Assembly (NCBI RefSeq): GCF_020085105.1
Contig: NC_058061.1
Span: 2,888,284-2,952,283, forward strand
Reading direction: 5' to 3'
Source of the DNA: Siniperca chuatsi
Lineage: Eukaryota; Chordata; Actinopteri; Centrarchiformes; Sinipercidae
DNA: 64,000 nucleotides
Under the pieces are notes generated by a model. It saw only the letters and a program-made list of their open reading frames with translations, had not been told where the DNA came from and made no database searches. The position numbers and the translations under genes were made by a program. Below, in pieces: positions 371 to 44,942 of the stretch; position 1 is the stretch's first letter; each line of letters opens with the position of its first letter.

Positions 371-1611
371 GGTCCTAATTCGCCATGATTTTGGCACAAT
401 GAACAATCCTTTCACATTACAGATTCATTTAATGCAATTTTAATAATACAATAGAGAGTCTACAGCCATGCAGGCAGCTCTGTGAGGCTGTACTTAGCAC
501 ATATTAGCATGCTAATGTCAGCATTAACAAGTTAATGTTTAGCAGATATGTTTATCACTGTCGCCATCATACAATAATAAATACATATGAAACATTCAGA
601 ATGTAGTGCTTATGTGACTTATAAAGTCAAATAACTACAACCTTAATACTAACCCACAATTTCTTTTCCATTTTGCTTTACATGTATCATCATTTTGTCA
701 TATTTGTCACCATACACTGGCTACACACATGACTGCTTTAGATCTTGAATTCCATTAAATAAATATTCATTGAACAGCCTCAATGAATAGAGTATTTGTC
801 AAGATGTTAACTTGAGAATATTATTCAGTGTGAAATGTAGTGAAAGCCTGGCATTTATCGAGTCCTTGTAGTGGGGAGAACAGTACAGAAGCAGGGGATT
901 ATGGGTCCCAGGAGCATGCAGCTCACGTGTAGCACAGCTTCACCGCGACCAGTGGAGCATGAAAACAAAACAAGCCTTTATGTAGATGTGGAGCCATTGT
1001 GTATGCATGCACAGGTACTGTTAAAGTGAAGAGAAACGTCTGACAAATTGTACAAGGGCACACCGGAAAGTCGGAAACACGCAGGAACATTACATGTTTC
1101 ACCTGAGTGAACCTCGGAGAGCATGAGAGCAGAGCATGAACACATCCTGCTGTTTGTGGTTCTTATCTGGATGAATCATCTCACCCGGGGAGACTCAATG
1201 GAGCAGAGAAAATATACACTATCACACATCACAGACTGTGGAGCATGGTTTCAGTTATTCCTCCATGCTTATTAGTTCCTCCAGTCCTCCATCTATGTCC
1301 TTAATCTCTGACTTCCTTCTTTCTCCCCACTCTTCTCCCCTGGGAGCTGTCTTCCACTTCTCAAAAACTGCCACCTGTTTTCTTTTTCTACACTCACTCA
1401 GTCACAGATTTATTTGTTTTGCTTCTCTCTTTCTTCTGTCATACCTTATCAAACGCAGGAGGTGCATGTGGATGAAACTTCCAGAGACGAAGAGAGAGGC
1501 CTGATGTGACATCACATCACAGATGCCATGCAGGAGCAATTGCACAACACACACATATATACATATTTTATATACACACATACTGTATATATACACACAT
1601 ATTTTATATAC
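371..1611. other. Non-coding, AT-rich stretch
   Basis: No convincing exon was seen. Positions about 490-545 (AGCATGCTAATGTCAGCATTAAC) resemble a repeat found again near 50.3 kb. An 88-codon reading frame at 1238-1504 is rich in Ser and Phe, has no splice context or recognisable motif, and is treated as chance. Confidence 0.5.
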
Positions 1612-3420
1612 ACTGCCTGGATTGATTACAAGAAAGCATATGACTCAAAGCCACACACATGGATCACTGAATGCTTGGAGATGTACAACATCAACAGGAC
1701 GCTAAGAGACTTCATTGCAAACTCGATGAGGCTGTGGAAAACCACCCTTGAGGCCAATGGCAAGCCACTTGCACAAGTATCCATCAAATGTGGCATATAC
1801 CAAGGAGATGCTCTGTCCCCACTGCTGTTCTGCATAGGTCTGAACCCCCTCAGCCAAATAATCAACAAGACAGGCTATGGATACCGACTCAGGAACGGGG
1901 CCACCATCATTCACCTCCTCTACATGGATGACATCAAGCTATATATTAAGAGCGAGCGGGACATCGACTCACTGATCCACACCACCAGGATCTACAGCTC
2001 TGACATTGGGATGTCATTCGGGCTTGAGAAGTGCAGTCGAATGGTGGCAAAGAGAGGGAAAGTAGTCCACACAGAAGGGGTGTCACTCCCAGAAGGAACA
2101 ATAGCAGACATTGAGGATGGGTACAAGTACCTTGGAATACCACAGGCAAATGGCAACCTCAAAGAGGTAACAAGGAAAACAGCAACTGCCAAATACCTTC
2201 AACGAGTAAGGCAAGTCCTAAGAAGTCAGCTCAATGGCAAGAACAAGGCCCAGGCAATAAACAGCTACGCCCTGTCAGTGATCAAATACCCTGCGGGAAT
2301 AATAAGGTGGCCAAAGGAAGAGATACAGACCACAGACATTAAGACACAAAAGCTCCTCACCATGCATGGAGGGTTCCATCCCAAATCCAGCACCCTGAGA
2401 CTGTACGCTAGCCGTAAGGAAGGCGGCCGTGGACTAGTGGGTGTGAGAGCCACTATCCAGGATGAAACATCCACGATCCACAAGTACATCAAAGTTAAGG
2501 CCCCAACAGATGACGTGCTCAGTGAATGTCTCAGACAATGGGGAACAGAGGAAGAGGTGCTGGAGGAGGGACCATCATGGGAGGACACACCCCTACATGG
2601 GATGTACCACCGGAAAATAACTGAAGTGGCTGATATCAAGAAATCCTACCAATGGCTAGAGCGGGCCGGACTGAAGGACAGCACAGAGGCGCTCATCATG
2701 ACTGCACAGGAGCAGGCCCTGAGCACCAGAGCAATAGAGGCCCAGATCTACCACACCAGACAAGACCCAAGGTGTAGGCTGTGCAAAGAGGCCCCTGAGA
2801 CAATCCAGCACATAACTGCAGGGTGTAAGATGCTGGCAGGGAAAGCATGCATGGAGCGCCTTAACCAAGTGGCTGGCATAGTGTACAGGAACATCTGCAC
2901 TGAGTATGGACTGGAAACCCAGAGGTCAAAGTGGGAAACACCTCCAAAGGTGGTAGAGAATGGCCGAGCCAAGATCCTGTGGGACTTCCAGATTCAGACG
3001 GACAGAATGGTAATGGCGAACCAACCAGACATCGTGGTGGTTGACAAACAGCAGAGGAAAGCCGTTGTGGTTGACGTGGCGATACCAAGCGATGGCAACA
3101 TCAGGAAAAAGGAACATGAGAAATTAGAGAAGTACCAAGGGCTCAGAGAAGAGCTGGAGAAGGCCTGGAAGGTGAAGGCAACAGTGGTGCCCGTGGTCAT
3201 CGGAGCACTCGGGGCAGTGACCCCCAAACTGGAGGAGTGGCTACAGCAGATCCCTGGAAGAACACCAGACATCTCGGTCCAGAAGAGTGCAGTACTGGGA
3301 ACAGCAAAGATACTGCGCAGAACCCTCAAGCTCCCGGGCCTCTGGTAGAGGACCCGAGCTCGAAGGATGAGACCACCCACGGGGGGTGAAGGACAAAGTT
3401 TTTATATATATAAATAAATA
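1612..3420 (+). mobile_element. 5'-truncated Rex6/Dong-like (R4-clade) LINE
   Basis: This is a non-LTR retrotransposon copy. Similarity begins abruptly at about 1612, inside a TATACACA-type simple sequence, and runs through the open reading frame to a short 3' UTR that ends in TATATATA/TAAATAAATAAA. The 5' part (N-terminal domain and upstream RT blocks) is missing, the usual result of incomplete target-primed reverse transcription. Dong elements are known to insert in simple repeats, which fits the AT/CA-rich flank. The open, undamaged frame suggests a fairly young insertion. Assignment to Rex6 rests on the C-terminal restriction-like endonuclease and remembered similarity; R4 or Dong labels are equivalent at this resolution. 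Confidence 0.85.
1615..3348 (+). CDS. LINE reverse transcriptase / restriction-like endonuclease, N-terminally truncated
   Basis: The frame is open for about 577 codons from the Trp codon at 1618. The ORF can be read upstream to 1528, but that part is CA/TA simple repeat and not protein. Reverse transcriptase blocks seen in order: motif A (WIDYKKAYDS), motif B (GIYQGDALSPLLF) and motif C (LLYMDD, the catalytic Asp pair). Further on come a CCHC knuckle (CRLC ... HITAGC, near 2775-2830) and a PD-(D/E)XK-type endonuclease core (PDIVVVDKQQRKAVVVDVAIP region, about 3025-3085). This order, RT then CCHC then C-terminal nuclease, defines the early-branching LINE clades R2/R4/Dong/Rex6. It encodes no host function. 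Lacking its 5' part and promoter, this copy is probably immobile. Confidence 0.85.
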   Translation, partial: AWIDYKKAYDSKPHTWITECLEMYNINRTLRDFIANSMRLWKTTLEANGKPLAQVSIKCGIYQGDALSPLLFCIGLNPLSQIINKTGYGYRLRNGATIIHLLYMDDIKLYIKSERDIDSLIHTTRIYSSDIGMSFGLEKCSRMVAKRGKVVHTEGVSLPEGTIADIEDGYKYLGIPQANGNLKEVTRKTATAKYLQRVRQVLRSQLNGKNKAQAINSYALSVIKYPAGIIRWPKEEIQTTDIKTQKLLTMHGGFHPKSSTLRLYASRKEGGRGLVGVRATIQDETSTIHKYIKVKAPTDDVLSECLRQWGTEEEVLEEGPSWEDTPLHGMYHRKITEVADIKKSYQWLERAGLKDSTEALIMTAQEQALSTRAIEAQIYHTRQDPRCRLCKEAPETIQHITAGCKMLAGKACMERLNQVAGIVYRNICTEYGLETQRSKWETPPKVVENGRAKILWDFQIQTDRMVMANQPDIVVVDKQQRKAVVVDVAIPSDGNIRKKEHEKLEKYQGLREELEKAWKVKATVVPVVIGALGAVTPKLEEWLQQIPGRTPDISVQKSAVLGTAKILRRTLKLPGLW

Positions 3421-34266: not shown

Positions 34267-35441
34267 CTATCCTGAGTGGACTTTCATGTGTGTCTTCAGA
34301 TGTGGCTGCTGGTTAAATCTTTTACCACAAACATCACAACCAAATGGTTTCTCTCCTGTGTGGACTCTCATGTGTATTTTAAGATGTGTCTGCTGGTTAA
34401 ATCTTTTACCACAAACACCACAGTGAAATGGTTTTTCTCCTGTGTGGACTTGCATGTGTGTCTTCACATTTTTCTTCTGGTTAAATCTTTTACCACAAAC
34501 ATCACAGCCAAATGGTTTTTCTGCTGTGTGGACTCTCATGTGTGTCTTAAGATTTGTGTTCTGGTTAAATCTTTTACCACAAACATCACAGCCAAATGGT
34601 TTCTCTCCTGTGTGGACTCTCATATGTGTCTTCAGCTTTCCCGGTTCTGTAAATCTTTTCCCACAAACACCACAGCGAAATGGTTTCGGTCCTGTGTGGA
34701 CTCTCATCTGTGAATCTACCTTTTGCTTCACTCTAAAACATTTCTTATTAACCAAACGACTGGAGGACCTTTTTCCTAAATGACATATCATGTGTCTCTG
34801 AAGAGACCCCTTGTAATGAAATCCTTTACCACACTTTAAGCAGCTGAAGGATTTTTTTCCAGTATTACATCCCACATCACTTACAGGGGCTTCCTTATAT
34901 TCCAGAGCATTTACACCTGACTCGGGTGCCCTGGTCTCCTTCCAATCATTGTCAATGACTTCCGTTTCAGGTCCAGAATCTGACAAAGGTTCTTGCCAGT
35001 CATCATTACTGACTTCAGTCTCAGAAGAGTCTGAAGCCTTTTCATCAGTATTTGGTTGTAAATTAATATCTGGATCTAGGTTCCTGGCTGCTTTCGATCC
35101 TGCACAATGCTCTCCATCAGTTTCTGTTTTTATTTGCATAGCTGAGCTGCTGGTTGGAGGCTCTGCCTCTCTGTTGTCCTCAGTTTGGCTTCGATGAAGC
35201 TGTGAAGACTGAGGTTTCTCTTCATCATCTTCACTCTTCACAGGAACAGCAGTGAATGGGAACCTGGTGATATCAGCCTCCTCCAGCCCATTAAACTGCT
35301 CTCCCTCTTGACTGGTCCAGAGTTCCTCCTGCTCCTGTTTTATGTGTAGGGGCTCTGAGTCCTCCTGGTCCAGTCTGGGGCTCCATTCAGAGGGAACCTC
35401 TTCTTTAATGACCAACACCTGCTGGACATCTGCAGGGAACA
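34267..35441 (-). CDS. C2H2 zinc-finger protein, main (last) coding exon
   Basis: The exon opens after TTTTCTATTTTCAG at 35442 and enters in phase 1 (xTG TTC CCT), so the true start lies in an upstream exon not identified here; the GTG at its head is not a start. It encodes about 390 residues. The N-terminal half (1-195) is acidic and begins FPADVQQVLVIKEEVP, the signature of a very large teleost zinc-finger family, with two DDW/NDW-containing repeats near 144-172. Then come C2H2 fingers at about 201-221, 257-277, 285-305, 313-333, 341-361 and 369-389. A degenerate one at 235-249 has lost a Cys. The last five share CGKRF and TGEKPF-type linkers and are nearly identical outside the DNA-contact positions. 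It is probably a nuclear DNA-binding regulator; the target is unknown. Confidence 0.82.
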
Positions 35442-37507
35442 CTGAAAATAGAAAATGAATAAGAACTGATCAATAATGTGAAAGATGGAGTTCCCTTAAC
35501 AAATATTATGATACAGGACAAGAACGTGCAACTATAGTGATGGTGCACACCGTCGATGGCAAGTATAGATGTAGTATTTTTACTGCAATTTGCTTCAAAA
35601 TGTGCACCCTTTTCCCAATCAACAAGTCTTCCAAATTAAATTACCAACTGCGTCATTTTTAATGGCCCTCCAGAACTTGGTTAATGTTAGGGGACATTCG
35701 TCATCGTGGTTACCATAGTAACCACTTGGCTAAGGTCAGGGAACGACCGTGGTCATTGTTAAAACAGTGACTGTTGGTAGGAAACAGGAAACAAACACTA
35801 GTTTCCTGTGTCAACGTCCAACGTTTTGTTGACCCATCCAACCACCACCAACCTCCTCCCTCTGTGGACTTTGTGGCTGTATAACAACTTCCCATTATTT
35901 TCTCCTTTGCTCCCAACAGACATGAATCATAATTCCACTAGAGGCCTTTGTCACTGGAACATGTGTCAATTTGGGCATTTGCGGAAACAATTGATGACAG
36001 TCTCCTTCTGTGTGTCATAATCAAAGACATTCATTGTCCCCAGAGGATGATTCCTAATGACTCCAGCAGGGATCCGCACAGACAGATGCCTGCCAGGCAG
36101 CATAGTCATTCTCAGTTTTGGATCGGTGCCACCCGGCTACCTTTGATGGCAACAGCGGCGCAAGCAGATGGTAGCGGCCGGTAGCTCCTTTAAACTTCAC
36201 TAAATTTTTGTTTTAATCTGTTATTTTTTCGGCTTTATTGCTGAAACACGTATTACCTATGACAGAAACACACTCATCAGCATTGGAAAAGGAAGCGCAG
36301 GGTTTGGACTAAGAGACCTTGAGACGAACACTGCCCACAGCACCTTCCGACCACCCAGCCAGACCAGCCAAACCAAGTGCCGCAGCGGGTGGTGCAACTG
36401 CGGACTGATTTCTATGTAAAGGACTGTGAAGGGTGTGACATTTATGCGCACTCCCAAGTGCCTTGCCTCTCTTTAGCTCCCCTTCAGCGCCAATAATAAC
36501 TAACGTTAGCTTAGAAATAGGGTCCACTAATGTAAACAAACGGCTGGCACCCACCCATGACAGCTACAGTAGCTTGGAAAATAGCGATATGGGGCACTGA
36601 ATTTAATGAATTTACTGTTTCAGACCACAAATGACACAAGTATTAGGTTGGAAAAACAATAGATGCTGCTGGAGTGGAGTGTTTCTGAGGACAGGGCCTC
36701 ACTGATCTACTTCGCTGAATGTGGGGAAAAAAGGCCCTTACAGTCAAGATGGATAACAAAAAAATGTAAAGATTTATTCATCTCGCATCGTGCTTAACTT
36801 CAGTGGATCATAACATATCGGGTATGGAATTAATCTGCAGATGCTCCAGTTCAAGATGAGAACAAACTTTTCTGTCAGTTTTTGATCCACGACAAAGGCC
36901 AAAATGTGGCCTGCATGAATCTGGCAAGAAAACACACTGGTTATCTATTATAAATGATAACGCTAAATGATAAATTATACATAAATTATGTGATTCTAAT
37001 AAATGATGAAATATGCATCACATATTATAATATATATCACACAGGAGTCAGCAGTCAATGGCGGTATAAAACAGAGCAGTCAATAAAATAGGTATTTGAA
37101 TACCGCAACCACGAGTGATCCTTGAGCATACGGTCATAAATGTGTACAAAATGACTAGGCTGACGGGTCCAGTAGTATGCGAAATTAGCTGCCGACAGAT
37201 ACACACATGCACACACACGACCAAACGCATGATCCCCACCAGGGTTACGCTTAGCGGAGATAATAAGCTGTCGAAACATTGGTCTGTTTGGACACTAAAA
37301 GTTTAATGGCATGCTCCAGCTCTTTAATTCTATGGTCCCGCCTGAGAAGCACCATGATTCAGCTATTTATTGTTGGAAGAAACATGGTGACAAGATAGTG
37401 CCATTACACATTAAATTAATATACTGTTTTTATACAGTTGAGAAAATAATGCTATTTCACCAAGAGTATGAGTTACAGGGTAAGTTAATATGCTACAATA
37501 AAGGCAA
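35442..37507. other. Non-coding stretch between the zinc-finger and Kolobok-like genes
   Basis: The missing first exon of the zinc-finger gene should lie here or further right, but no frame with the family's usual coiled-coil start was recognised. The block 36060-36560 is GC-richer. No other gene was seen. Confidence 0.35.
37366..37371 (-). promoter_or_regulatory. Candidate polyadenylation signal AATAAA of the Kolobok-like gene
   Basis: TTTATT on the plus strand, about 260 bases beyond the proposed stop codon at 37632-37634. Confidence 0.4.
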
Positions 37508-37668
37508 ACAAGGTCACCCTGGTAGCTCACCTGGTAGAGCGTTTACCATTAAGGCTGTGTCCAACCCGGGGCCCTTTGCTGCATGTCATACCCCTTCTCT
37601 CTCCCACCTTTTCTGTCTCTAGCTACAGCTGTCACTGTAACAGCACTGTTGGAAAAAAAAAGGCAAAG
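37508..37668 (+). mobile_element. tRNA-derived SINE
   Basis: Starts with a tRNA-like A-box (GGTAGCTCACCTGGTAGAGCG). It continues through a degenerate B-box region (CCAACCCGGGGCC), then the common fish SINE body CCCTTTGCTGCATGTCATACCCC, TTCTCTCTCCCACCTTTTCTG and CTACAGCTGTCACTG, and ends in an A-rich tail. AAAGGCAAA occurs on both sides (37499 and 37660 regions) as the likely target-site duplication. Confidence 0.8.
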
Positions 37669-40600
37669 AAATGTGTGTCCCTTACCTAGACCTGGTGCAG
37701 GTATGGAGGGCACCAAACCAAACTCTCTGGGGTCATCTGGTCGAAGGGTCCTCCTTCTAGGCATCCCCACTCCACTTGTGATGCTCCTCTTTACAATCCT
37801 TGCCTGCAACTCAGAGATGTATCCGTAGGTTTTTTCAGATTTCAGGGCGTATACGCTGTATCTTCTGCCGTTTTTCTTGTACAGCCTTCTGAAACTAATT
37901 ACACACATTTCAGCCATTCAGTATCAGTTATTCATTATAACAACTATGACAACCTTGAGTGCACATGTAAATAAATAATCATTTGCAAACAAAACATTGT
38001 AAAGAAAATGTGTGTTCCAGTACTGTAAATGGGAATATTTCAAGTGTAAAATGTACATCTCTTTGCCTTCCGCTGTTTTCATTGTTGGTCGGTTCCGGTG
38101 GAAATTATAGTCCAGAGCAGCAAGCAGAACTCTTGCTTCATAAACTGGGGGACTGAAAGCGTAGCACTTGCTGGCATACATCAGAATATGATTCTGGAAT
38201 ACCTCTAGATCTGCAGTTGATCTGATTGAACAAAAAAAAAATATATATATATATATATATAATTTAAAAAATATGCACAAATAGTCATAATGTACATCTA
38301 TGTGAAACTTTACCTGAAGCGCAGATATTTATGTACATCCTTCAGCCAACGCTTATTGAGAACGATGTCTACTAAAGCTTGGTGGCACTTGGAGTCTCTC
38401 TGGATCCACTCCTTTCCACGTGTCTCTTCCAGGTGCCCATGTTGGCATCTTCCCATAGTCCAGGTGTGAATGTCACAGACATGGTGAAGGATGCCAACCC
38501 ATAGCGCCTGGCAAAAATAAAACAGCACTATAAAAATATCCTTCATATGGAAATTAATGAACTTACTGAGAGAAAAAATATATATAAATTATGTGCTTAC
38601 AAGAAACTGCTCGGATGTGTGAGCTGTCTTACAACACCACCAAAAATGGTTTACGATGTCTTTCAGCCAGATGAGGAGAATGGACTGTCCTCTTATCTTT
38701 GCTGCCTTGAGGACAGAAACAAAGCATAGATAATAATGTAATACATGGGTATTCATATTCCATGGAGGGCTGAGAGTATGCAGATTTTCATCCCAACCAA
38801 AGACTACACCAGATGATTTCACTGATTAACACACCTTCAGCCAGAGGGGAGCTAATCGGTGACATCAACTTTTTGTTGTCTTTGATTGGAATGAAAACAT
38901 ACGTACTCTCGGCCATCAATGGCACATGGTTAAATACCCCTGATGTAAGATACAGTCACTTTATAATAAATACATAGTAAGCAATACCATGAGCCACTTA
39001 TTAAACTTACAGCAGCTATTTTTTTGGCCAGGTTTTTGGCACCATGCCACATGTCCAAACTGTGATGAATTCCAAGGGCCTTGTATCTGCCTTCGTCAGG
39101 GTCTGTGAAGTGGGGAGTCATTTAATATTACTACCATATTTCAATCATCTTTTCAACACACGTATTCATACATTATATCAGATGAGTACTTACTCATAAG
39201 CGCTCCGATCTGGGCATGAGCATCTGTGCAGATCTCCGCTAGCTTGATCTCTGATGTAAGCTTGTCCACAGTCTCGATAAAACCCTCCTTCTCCATGACA
39301 GCAGAGTTCCAGGATGTGTGCCGCTTGTCTATGGTGACAACATGAATTATCTCCTTGGTGTCATTCTCCATGGTGGTGTAGCTGCAGTACTGTGCACAAT
39401 GGCCCGGCGAGTCATTTCTGCCATCCGCTAAAAAAATCCAAAAGTTAGCTGCTTATATGCAATAACACTGCCATTGCCTAATGTCTTCAATACTCAGTAA
39501 TGTTGATAGGTTTTCAATGTAGTGAGTCCCCAGGACCCACAGGTGGTTATCTGAGTGTGTCCCGGATAAAATTGTTGTTGTTTGAAAAAATGTAGTGTTA
39601 AACTCGTGTTTGATGTTATGTGGTTATATTTATGGTTATTAATTTATGTTGAAAATGTATCTGAAAATAACAAACAAATTCAATCCCAAATCTGTAAATA
39701 CACTGCAGACAAACAGCAGCTGACAGAAAGAGGAGGTGATATTATACAGAGAAACATGAACTTTTTCTGGGTGAATAAATGTTAAAAAGGGAAGTTAAAG
39801 GGCAACGAGATTGCTGAGCTTTCAAGCTTTATCAGGAGTCATTACACCATCAAGCATGTTTAATTAGTAAAGTATTTTAAAAAACACACACAAAGGGCAA
39901 CCATTTACTGCATACTGCCTTCAGAGCTGGAGCTGGACGAGTACCTAGCAACATCACTGAAAACTTATATAACATGGTAAGGTTTAAGCTACGCACCTAA
40001 GACCACAACATCTTTCCCTTGAAGGCGACTGAGGGCCTCAGACCTTCTCTCTTCCCAGAAGTCCTTTACTGTGTCAACACAGAAAGTGTCCTGAATGGAG
40101 AAGAAGGTGTTCTTGTTCACCATCCCCATGTTCATAAATTTGAACAAGAGGGCAACCTTTGCATAGTTGCTGCCAGACAACAAAATGTTGGTGGACAAGA
40201 GAAAATCTCCAGCTTGCATCCCAAACTTCATTACAGGCTGGGAATTCCACCTCCACACGCTGTGTCCATTGGGACAGACCTAAAAGTCAAATAAAACTAA
40301 TAATTCCATTTGGCATGTACAACACTGGTTTCAAATTTGGGTTTTTATGTGAATTTACAGTTATTATATGCCGTGACTTACCCATTCGACACTCGTTGCT
40401 GTGCCCTTGGAAGTGATGTTGATCTCAAAGGGGGAGACGCAGTCGCACACTCCACCAGTCTCAATCAAAAGGCCTGTACATTTATTCACAGGCAGGATCA
40501 GAAATGTAGCCAGTTGTCTCAAGCAGTCCTCGTATACTATTGAAGCTCTGGCACCTATGATGTCATCTTCACAAAGGACATGCTGTGGGCCTGGGAAAAC

Positions 40601-42602
40601 AGGGGCCTGATCACAGGGAGAAGGCTCATCGGGAGGGTCTTCGTGTGCAGGCTGGTCATGCACAGTCTCGTCGATTCCAATAACTGGAAGTCGATCAATT
40701 GATGGTGCTGTCTTTAATGCTCCACCCATTCTGTTGTGGCACAACATGAAGGCATATGTGTAAAAAGTTGTAAAAAAACAGACAACACACAGCAATAGCA
40801 GAGTAAAGACTGAGAGATAACGCACCGTATACAAATTGGTGGAAGATACTCTTCATCAGAGCAATCGTCCTTCTCTCCACCATCTTGTTGATGAAAGTAA
40901 GGGGAACCTTCTACCCAATCAATTCTGTAAAGAAGGACATATTCAGACAACAATAACTTCTAAAAAGAGAGAACACTAAATGGTAATAAATGTCATTAGG
41001 AAGTACTACTTACACACTGTTCAAGGGGTCACTGAAAACATTGTCCTCCTCAAACATGCTCAAGCTGTAGAAATAAAAACATTAAAAATATATAATTAAT
41101 ATATACAAACCACGAGACATGCAGTGCAAAGAAGTTACGACAGTTGAACTGTTACCTTTGGTCAAGGCCCTGACTTTCTGTGGCTTCTGCAATGACATTC
41201 AGATGCTTATCTCTGTAAAGAATAACCAGAGCATGTTCTACATCACACATATGGAGATACAACAGTAAACTAAACCCATTAATCAGAAACTTTGGGTTTG
41301 TAATCAAACATATCAGGACAGCACAATTATTTCAATGCAATGACTTGCCTGTCCGTCCCACTCGAAGCACCAACGCTAGCCACTGCTGGAGCTGTGACTC
41401 GAAAAGGTTTTCCCTTCATGGGAGTCGATGTTGCGTGACCTCTCTCATAGCTGGAGAACCAACAGCAACATCAAGAAAATAAGCTACATGGCACAGTCGC
41501 ACACCCCTGTAATACATCCTGTGTCGTCCGAAGGTGCTGGGAGGGTTGTCTGTAACACTGTGAATGTCACTATGTCAGAGTAAATTTAAAAAGTACATTC
41601 GTTTTTACAAAGAAAACGTCAGGAGAGGCCCATGGGTCTGAACACAAAGTACTACTTATAACCATTAATGGAGGCTGTGGGCACACAATGCAACCTTTGG
41701 CAATGGCATTTACCCTGTGCCTCATCAGAGTCCACCTATGTGCAAAAAAAGCAATTAAAAACAACTAATTGCACCGTTTTGTATACAAACAGAGCAAGTA
41801 AACCATATTTGTCACTTCTGATAGGCACTGCACAGGGTTTTGATTTAATAAATAAGCATAAATAAATATTTTACACCAGAGGTGTAAAATGTGAAGTTTG
41901 GTTAGTTGTTGGCTGACATGAGCTCCAAAGCTTTTTGTTTAACACTTTTATTGACATTTATCATTTTCAGCAGCTGTGGGCTGATCTCCGGGTCTTTTGA
42001 GTCCAGATAACAGATAACAAAGATAAATTCTAGTTTGGGCGAATAAGTGTAAAATTACACTTCCAGGTAGCAATTAGATATTTTCAACACTGATACGGGG
42101 GGAAAGGTTACTTGTGTTGGTAACTATGTCAGTGGCCATGTTCTGGCTAAAGCTAACAACAAACTGCATTTAGACTGATAGGCTAAATTACCTGTCCAGC
42201 AGAAAACAGGCAACTTCGGCGTCACTCTGAAAACCTTTGTTCCTCATCAGCGATTTCCATTTGGGAAAGGCCACACCAATGCTTATCCTTGTTTTCTGCC
42301 GTCGTCGATCCCGACTTCGTTTTACTTCTTCACGTTTTCGCTTCTTTGACGGCGAGGGTTCACGCTCCCTCGCCTTTTCTTCTGCTAAATAATAAGTATG
42401 ATCCTGCATTTGTGCAAATGTTGGGTTCTCAAACTTCTCACAACACAAACTGGGTAGCCAGCACCAGCAAACAATTATTCATCTTCTTTCGTATTCTAAT
42501 ATCTATAAACAGACACCTGAAAGCAGAGTCTGTAGGCAAGGGACAGTATTTTGTGTCGGTTCTGGTTTCCGTTTGTAGTCCGAGTAGCTTGCTATTGACC
42601 AT
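37632..42602 (-). CDS. Kolobok-type DDE transposase gene, multi-exon and intact
   Basis: Coding exons on the minus strand: 42192-42449 (internal ATG at 42409), 41349-41450, 41156-41212, 41014-41064, 40826-40924, 40382-40730, 39997-40279, 39194-39427, 39011-39102, 38601-38705, 38314-38507, 38057-38221, 37686-37894, 37632-37645. All phases agree and there is no internal stop. From ATG 42409 the product has 723 residues; an optional first exon at 42517-42602 also joins in phase (765 residues). Intron 2 uses a GC-AG donor (ACAG/GCAAGT). Regions: basic N-terminus; Cys/Trp zinc-binding region CPNGHSVWRWNSQP (about 295); then the Kolobok signature DGRNDSPGH (D388), CTDAH (D455), HSLDMWHGAKN (D481), HFWWCC, LHHVC..H and LEVFQ (E601), the likely DDE triad plus Cys/His insertion. 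No THAP domain is seen. It is either an autonomous transposon or a domesticated gene. Confidence 0.78.
38242..38262 (+). repeat. (TA)n microsatellite beside a splice acceptor
   Basis: ATATATAT run just upstream of the acceptor of the exon at 38057-38221. Confidence 0.8.
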
Positions 42603-42639
42603 TGGTGTGTGAGCAGGCTTTGGTTGCATGCAGGTAAAC

Positions 42640-42900
42640 AGTCCGTGTGGAGAGCAGAAGAGGCGGAACACATTAGCTAAAATGCTATCTCGGAACCCAT
42701 ACTCTATCGTCTGATGACGATTTAGCTTTTCATTTCCTTTTTTAAAAATAAATGTATCTGAACTTATATGCAGATATATGTTTATAGAAATTAACCGAAA
42801 TGTCGTGTGGATGTCGTTTCTAATCGGACTGTATTGGCGCACGGAAGAGGAAGCCTCGGCCCGGATATCCGCTGGCTACACCGGAAGCACCAGAAACTTA
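42640..42900 (-). promoter_or_regulatory. Probable 5' flank of the Kolobok-like gene
   Basis: The 300 bases upstream of the first possible ATG are CpG-richer than the surroundings (GGCGCACGG, CCTCGGCCCGG) and carry ACACCGGAAGC, an ETS-type site, at about 42880. No TATA box is in a sensible place. A transposon terminus (TTAA-flanked inverted repeat) was not recognised here. Confidence 0.3.
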
Positions 42901-42927
42901 TTTTGGTAAACTTTATTAAAGATAATA

Positions 42928-42930
<3 letters not shown>

Positions 42931-43012
<82 letters not shown>
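42931..43012 (+). repeat. (TA)n microsatellite
   Basis: About 40 perfect TA units, followed by two copies of ATATATGCAACATATATG and a TTCTGA-type tail (43046-43062). Confidence 0.97.
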
Positions 43013-43018
<6 letters not shown>

Positions 43019-44493
43019 TGCAACATATATGCAACATATATATATCTGATTCTGATTCTGATATGCTACATATAGGACACACAAGATACAACATCAATAA
43101 CATAAGGCCCAGGGGTACAGGCAAAGAGTAAGTAAGTATAGTTTTATTTATATAGCACTTTTTAAAACACACAGTTACAAATAGGGAGGAAAATATCCAA
43201 CGACAACAAGGCTCTTTATTCAAAGGTCTAAATCATAGCACCAACTTGACAAAGGTAGCGTATAATAGCAGCATCCTCATAGTTCTCTGAATATTTTATT
43301 TTTTATTATACCATTCCAAAGTGGGATTAGGTAAGGAATTGTGACAATGTCTTTTTGGAATAAAGTGTTTATTATTATTCTGAGGCTCTGCTGAAAAGCA
43401 CAAACCACCCACAGCAGTATCAGATAAATTGACAGTGTGAGTAAGCAGCCATGGGAAGTTAAACTCCTCAGCAGCGATATGATCCCAGAAGGATTTCCAT
43501 CGAAAACGACTGCATATTACTTAACTGTTATGGGAATTTGATATGTCCTCAAAAAATCTGCGTAGTTGTACAGCCTACAATTTGAGAGAAATGGTGGACC
43601 AACAAGTAGGATGTTATATTTGAACCAATTTTCAAAAAACAAAGATTTGGTTTTGTAGAGAATGCCCTTATTATTCCAAATGTAATATCTGTGCGGTGAG
43701 AAGTTATGCTTAAACACGAGAGACCAAGCCAAAAGCATCTGCTCATGAAAGTTTGACAATTTGATCGCGATTTTAGTAATATTATAATTGTAAAATAAAA
43801 GAAATTCCAAGCCACCAATTTAGGAAAAAAACCATATAGAACTAATGAATTCCATAAAGAAGATGGGTTATTAATAAATTGTCTGAGCCAATTAATTTTT
43901 ATGTAATGTTTAGAGTTCTGAAGTCCAGAAAATTCACACGCCCACAATGAATTATGTTCATTTTGTTTGACTTTCATTTTTCCACACAAAACATATTGTC
44001 GCTTCTTTTGGATAATACGCTATAAACATCCAGAAACAAAGCCACATAAGAAAGTCTGGATATGCCCTCAGCTTTGGAGAGTAAGATTCTCTTTGTAACC
44101 ATGAATTTAATTTCTTTTGGGATTTTTCAATGCTTGGGTTAAAATTTCTCTCTTCAGCGGCCGCATCTAGTCACTGTTTCACCAAAGCTTAAGCATTAGT
44201 AGTTTCGACATATACACAATGACAGAAGTTTTTTCTCCAAAAGTTTCTCCAAGCAATATTTGCTGCCGTTGCTAGGTCATGATCCTGTCATTACATGTTC
44301 AGTTAGCAAGATAAACTAACTAGCAGACAGTGTGGCATAAGATTATTTAAACAACTTTGAAAAGGAACTCCACACTATTTTTTATGTAGACGTAATCGCA
44401 TTGATTCCTGTTGGCATGTTATGTTAATGCAGGTGATCCATGCTTGCTAAAAGGGGCGATAGTTATGGTCAATGTGTCATTCTGTTATTTGAC
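43013..44493. other. Non-coding stretch
   Basis: AT-rich. GTATAGTTTTATTTATATAGCACTTTTT at 43136 is another retroposon-type terminus. The minus-strand frames at 43517-43989 overlap in two frames; they are Phe/Tyr/Asn-rich with no recognisable RT motif, although the composition resembles decayed LINE coding sequence. Confidence 0.35.
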
Positions 44494-44942
44494 TGGATTA
44501 GGCTGATTATATTCTATATTTTGCTTATTGTCAACAAATCCCACAAAAAGACCCAAACCAACTATAAATATACGAACAAGTATTGTGTGTATCAAAGCCT
44601 GATGGATCTTCTTCCTCCACTGTTGTCCAAAAACTATTAAAAACACATCAGTGAGCCGCACTGTTGCACTGGGTGACATGTTCCTTCATCACCATGAACA
44701 CACACACTATAGTTTATTCTGACACAGAGCAACAAGTAATGAAAATAGTCCTCAACAAATTCCCATGATTTGATTGAAGCATATTCCTACTGATTATTAT
44801 ACTGGTACCTAGTGATTCATTTAAAAATGTCAGTAGGAACCAGCAGGCTGAATGCCACAGACCGGTTAGAGATGGGCTAACTCTTTTTATGAGATTTGTT
44901 GACGTTAAGAAAGATGTAAAATTACACCAGCCCTAGCCTTTA
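44494..44942 (-). mobile_element. Foldback MITE, family D, copy 2
   Basis: Left end GGATTAGGCTGATTATATTC, right end CACCAGCCCTAGCCTTTAA. The central block ACATCAGTGAGCCGCAC ... GGGTGACATGTTCCTTCATC is the reverse complement of 29250-29310. Confidence 0.7.

Follow-up and report, generated by a model that had tools for sequence, protein, structure and literature searches.

The genome of Siniperca chuatsi harbors an open, intron-rich transposase gene of Kolobok-like type in a 64-kb stretch of contig NC_058061.1 (positions 2,888,284-2,952,283 of the forward strand; this whole stretch is referred to as the window). The copy can no longer jump, because its mobile DNA ends are gone. We favor, at roughly even odds and from sequence comparison, the reading that the host has kept it as an immobilised transposase gene. 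A preliminary description of this DNA had proposed either a very young autonomous element or a host gene made from one.

The rebuilt gene model extends on the minus strand from position 42409 to 37632 and comprises 14 exons with consistent phases and no internal stop, encoding a product of 723 residues. Exon number and product length agree with those given before. The exon chain is real, with 13 solid coding exons and a doubtful 14th (Table 1). All introns are of the GT-AG type with the exception of the GC-AG intron after exon 2. From exon 6 onward, the differences to paralogous relic loci elsewhere in the genome lay mostly at third codon positions in all eight loci compared (8/8). For one relative, L013, they amounted to 68/297, 44/295 and 122/294 at the first, second and third codon position, and blocks of similarity to this locus ended within about 11 bp of the borders of exons 7-10. 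Because of this third-position bias and the coincidence of the L013 blocks with exon edges, the exons cannot have been threaded by chance. The borders of exons 3-5 are covered by no relative. A 21-bp microexon near 41735 was dropped in favor of a direct splice between exons 1 and 2, since LLD joins SYERG in phase and the start of exon 2 recurs in the relics. Likewise, a start of exon 13 placed 6 bp further along, which gave a 721-residue product, was abandoned for the one homologous to that of L017; the Pfam and Protein Data Bank searches, the L013 block comparison and the unpolarised test of nonsynonymous (N) and synonymous (S) differences were performed with the 721-residue version. The optional first exon suggested earlier, reaching to 42602, lies inside a dispersed repeat (repeat Y).

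Table 1. Features of the transposase locus and its surroundings; positions are those of the window.
Feature	Position	Strand	Remarks
Open C2H2 zinc-finger exon	34270..35429	-	Phase-1 acceptor; about 2 kb downstream of the transposase, same strand
Repeat X	37043..37263	not assigned	Adjoins the 3'-side break; 38 other scored places
3' untranslated part still common to family copies	37262..37511	-	Family similarity stops at 37262
Dispersed repeat inserted in the 3' part	37508..37638	+	39 other scored places (40 of 790 candidates scored)
Exon 14 (doubtful), with stop	37632..37645	-	On dispersed repeat edge
Exon 13	37686..37894	-	Phase-1 donor GTAAGG
Exon 12	38057..38221	-	LEVF, predicted catalytic E601; donor GTACAT
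Exon 11	38314..38507	-	HHVCDIH...CQHGH, candidate H2CH zinc finger
Exon 10	38601..38705	-	NHFWWCC
Exon 9	39011..39102	-	DMWHGAKN (C/DxxH motif)
Exon 8	39194..39427	-	First and second predicted catalytic D (DGRNDSPG, CTDAH)
Exon 7	39997..40279	-	Gene model, L013 similarity and codon positions
Exon 6	40382..40730	-	Gene model and protein matches
Exon 5	40826..40924	-	Gene model
Exon 4	41014..41064	-	Gene model
Exon 3	41156..41212	-	Gene model
Exon 2	41349..41450	-	Followed by GC donor; exon 2 start recurs in relics
Exon 1	42192..42409	-	ATG, basic stretch, small N-terminal domain; 6 other genomic places, 76-87% DNA identity
Repeat Y	42497..42803	not assigned	Adjoins the 5'-side break; 34 other scored places
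First exon (probably broken) of zinc-finger gene, with upstream region	44149..44321	-	64% to L062

Relatives were searched across the source genome (719 Mb, 65 contigs), and two groups were found. Group A consists of 11 loci (L033, L034, L035, L037, L040, L048, L051, L053, L055, L056 and L019) and a short piece (L049), which match the window copy in coding, intron or untranslated sequence at about 68-97%. The members of group B (L013, L014 and L017) display long blocks, introns included, that are 76-83% alike to the window; their protein is approximately 45-70% identical exon by exon, with many frame changes. Every fetched relative was fragmentary, deleted or frame-broken. The copies of exon 1 (six places) and exon 13 (eight places) elsewhere showed 76-91% DNA identity. 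Several group A copies are deletion derivatives: coding position 281 is joined to position 1954 at the same point in L033, L048 and L051, and L040, L053 and L056 break nearby. The recurrence of this junction in several loci indicates that a deletion derivative was itself mobilised. A distant relative (27% identity) with DGRSNCPGHSEKYTTYSFMDDQTKEI was found at 1293-1712 on the minus strand of L060 (C11:25114000-25117000) and represents another transposase type of the same class. Viral contigs contained no relative.

The ends of the family are preserved in L040. This element is 3071 bp long, and its inverted ends of 34 bp (82%) are flanked by TTAA on both sides. Its termini are of the form AG...CT; one end reads AGGTCCAGTATGTAA and the opposite end TTACATACTGCTCCT. 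Copies of the 5' end are present in L033 and L035, both at TTAA, and in L034 at TCAA, and L019 has the 3' end at TGAA. Genome-wide, an exact 21-mer of the 5' end had six occurrences, against none for its reversed control. Behind the transposase, group A elements extend for a further 1.8 kb or so (L040, approximately 1290-3071) that is missing from the window and includes a hairpin near 1228-1385.

Neither family terminus was present in the 64-kb window, even with up to four substitutions allowed, and only stretches within positions 313-1289 of L040 and a 40-bp inverted piece matched it. Of 184 pairs of inverted repeats around the gene, the 25 inspected were TA runs, and the number of TTAA sites in the window (410) was close to expectation (407). 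TTAA target sites belong to the family copies and not to the window copy. The genome searches revealed no near-identical locus, and among at least 67 matches (62 of 306 candidates scored) no other place exceeded 78% protein identity. Both checks named in the preliminary description, for TTAA-flanked terminal inverted repeats and for near-identical genomic copies, were therefore negative.

The product contains the complete motif set reported before, with DGRNDSPG at residue 388, CTDAH at 453, DMWHGAKN at 481, NHFWWCC at 514, HHVCDIH at 538 and LEVF at 600. By motif position, D388, D455 and E601 form the predicted DDE triad, and the C/DxxH motif is present as DMWH (481-484) between the second D and the E. 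Between C/DxxH and E, a candidate H2CH zinc finger (HHVCDIH...CQHGH, 538-555) was assigned by eye. Membership in the Kolobok superfamily is supported by the TTAA sites and RR..YY termini of the family copies, the latter seen as AG...CT in L040, together with these motifs; the protein itself was assigned by motif. The earlier Kolobok-like call is supported. According to the accessible text of PMC9587614, a TTAA target combined with 5'-RR..YY-3' termini distinguishes Kolobok from piggyBac, and piggyBac was ruled out by these termini. Dada elements were ruled out as well, as the family sits at TTAA, whereas Dada inserts into small RNA genes with a target duplication of 6-7 bp.

The XKol transposases of Xenopus usually also have a THAP domain, as far as described in the available part of PMC6004289; THAP is not named in the main text of PMC9587614. 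A Pfam search of the window protein gave no match at E values up to 1 and hence no THAP domain, and the 100 listed THAP places (150 of 182 candidates scored) all lay outside the window. The Protein Data Bank search returned a single match (E 0.88). A small N-terminal domain occupies the position of THAP and recurs at no fewer than 20 listed places outside group A. It resembles a DNA-binding module common to transposons for which Pfam has no name. Among those places, on contigs C2, C3, C13, C24, C5, C11, C18, C1, C15, C19, C10, C16, C20 and C4, the domain (approximately residues 10-78) is 33-56% identical, and some of the places are open frames. The place at C1:18297311-18297457 (+) precedes a strong THAP domain (C1:18302788-18303063, +) by about 5 kb on the same strand, and the pair is possibly a THAP-bearing relative.

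Both breaks of the window copy run straight into dispersed repeats. Compared with their own family majorities, repeat X differed at 17/221 sites (11 copies) and repeat Y at 23/216 sites (3 copies only), corresponding to 8-11% divergence, a figure that dates each repeat's own insertion only and not the loss of the transposon ends. Single group A relics differed from their own majority by about 6%. A long TA microsatellite is located at 42929-43013, just outside repeat Y. A further repeat, which we take to be SINE-like (short interspersed element), overlaps exon 14 and its stop. In L040 and L051 the frame continues to a TGA; inspection of the alignment by eye revealed a 36-bp in-frame deletion and a change from TGA to GGA in the window. 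As exon 14 lies on a repeat edge and the relic TGA has been lost, the C-terminus is uncertain, and the protein may terminate after read-through, in the 14-base exon or after a splice to another site.

Comparison with the relics suggests selection on the transposase frame. The relics contained 15 frameshifting indels in 2223 exon bases, some of which, near the deletion junction, may be alignment effects; at the same age, 14.6 would be expected in the 2158 bp of the window. For this count, L040 was left out of exons 1-2 and L055 of exon 13 owing to poor or partial alignment. No frameshift was attributable to the window, which carries one 9-bp in-frame insertion in exon 1. Simulated drift (3000 runs each) introduced 2.7 stops at 3.4% divergence (P(none) 0.07) and 5.8 stops at 7.7% divergence (P(none) 0.002), compared with zero stops in the window. 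Moreover, a single open copy without transposon ends was found, as is characteristic of domesticated transposase genes; the searches set lower bounds on the number of copies.

Several observations weigh against retention. Exons 1, 2 and 13 differed from the relic majority by 28 nonsynonymous and 12 synonymous changes without codon-position bias, and the same test on the relics yielded 107 N, 11 of them involving stops, and 36 S (p 0.41 versus the window). There was no contrast between exons (40/465 differences) and introns or untranslated parts (66/757). When the 17 differences in exon 13 were polarised by outgroup B, six fell on the window lineage, eight on the relic stem and three on neither, and the six window changes were spread evenly over the codon positions (2, 2, 2). 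The unpolarised N/S test is weak, because at least eight of these 17 differences arose on the relic stem. It left out the repeat at 37500-37680; sites covered by too few copies or lacking a clear majority were excluded from it as well as from the repeat-divergence, polarised and exon 7 tests. Unique second-position changes in exon 7, scored against more distant relics, gave a mixed result, with 1/65 in the window versus 39/444 in the relics under one filter and 6/124 versus 26/534 under the other. At the start of exon 13, the window differs by one base from the relic majority, and the outgroup L017 has the window's length. The donor of exon 12 is weak, and the homologous place in L017 and L014 is a GTAAGT donor. 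The loss of the ancestral stop and the ragged C-terminus point in the same direction. Finally, subfamily structure may inflate the repeat ages, and the figure for repeat Y is based on three copies.

The main rival explanation is a dead, immobile copy without host function, whose frame survived by luck or lost selection recently. The lack of codon-level constraint in exons 1, 2 and 13, the missing ancestral stop and the erosion of both ends by repeats are what such a copy would display. However, a frame free of frameshifts and stops is unlikely at the age deduced from the relics and the edge repeats, and even the window's own 6/179 polarised exon 13 changes would let about 2.7 stops be expected. 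The earlier proposal of a host gene made from a transposon finds support in the open frame, which is unexpected under neutral drift, but none in the codons of exons 1, 2 and 13, which show no sign of constraint. As the evidence is divided, we put retention by the host at about one half and consider luck or recent relaxation somewhat less probable.

The transposase had been placed between two conserved host genes. More probably, it lies within the first intron of a C2H2 zinc-finger gene, the first exon of which is itself probably broken. A query for this type of first exon matched a broken piece at approximately 44.15-44.2 kb, and the canonical first exon and upstream region of L062 from the same genome could be aligned there. 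Over the whole window, 3/100 shuffles scored as high as the first-exon match, so that the identification also rests on order and strand. The query had 106 genomic matches, and such first exons cluster at C17:0.3-1.85 Mb, C24:0.64-1.2 Mb, C5:26.4-26.6 Mb and C9:2.92-2.96 Mb. A tRNA scan of 36000-44500 found none. At 1510-3345 (+), the window contains a long open frame with the reverse transcriptase domain of an element of the LINE (long interspersed element) type.

If exon 13 were spliced to the zinc-finger exon, a phase-1 donor would meet a phase-1 acceptor, and the frame would run for 1106 residues without a stop. The transposase exons might hence be the 5' part of the downstream zinc-finger gene, forming a Kolobok-transposase/zinc-finger fusion with the triad in place. 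The common strand, the compatible phases and the probably broken first exon of the zinc-finger gene would suit such a fusion; we nevertheless judge it improbable, given that a phase fit is expected in one of three cases by chance, that dispersed repeats lie between the two parts and that the first-exon match is weak. The open 723-residue frame and its triad might have pointed to a very young autonomous transposon; this reading is contradicted by the genome searches, which revealed no near-identical copy, by the absence of both family termini and by the diverged repeats at both edges, and is hardly credible.

In the favored reading, the gene is what is left of an old Kolobok-type DNA transposon, rich in introns and devoid of THAP, that probably inserted into the first intron of the zinc-finger gene. 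Both of its ends were lost, and other repeats now adjoin the breaks; the order of these insertions and deletions is presumed. Its frame would have remained open because selection, presumably at the host level, kept it for most of that time. The basic and helical N-terminal part may bind DNA that resembles the termini, and catalytic competence may persist in the RNase H-like DDE core. The product might be a DNA-binding host protein, or might act in trans on the deletion derivatives of the family, its own copy being immobile.

The family shares TTAA target sites and RR..YY termini with the Kolobok superfamily. It differs in the lack of THAP, the 14-exon model and another N-terminal domain, and the window copy has no ends. 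The domesticated XKol genes, as far as presented in the available part of PMC6004289, are likewise transposase genes with no or few other copies, for which host retention was proposed; synteny and the ratio of nonsynonymous to synonymous substitution rates (dN/dS) were tested there. In contrast to the present gene with its many exons and no THAP, they were found as single long open reading frames, the longest frames having been searched, and usually include THAP. In SETMAR, CSB-PGBD3 and KRABINER (accessible text of PMC12062965), transposase exons likewise adjoin an exon for a host DNA-binding protein and match its phase; here, the order would be transposase first and zinc fingers last. Dada transposons of fish (accessible text of PMC3706591) resemble the family in having an intron-rich DDE transposase with a DxxH motif, and differ in their 6-7 bp target duplications and small RNA gene targets. 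Kolobok is not named in the available part of PMC10027918, and, as judged by titles and the openings of abstracts, no report of a retained Kolobok transposase gene in a fish appeared among the papers listed from the open-licence literature searched.

Open, immobile transposase genes with their catalytic residues are raw material for domesticated recombinases and transcription factors. Since dead relatives, a two-ended family copy and datable edge repeats occur together in one genome, it is possible to order the stages by which a mobile element became a stranded gene.

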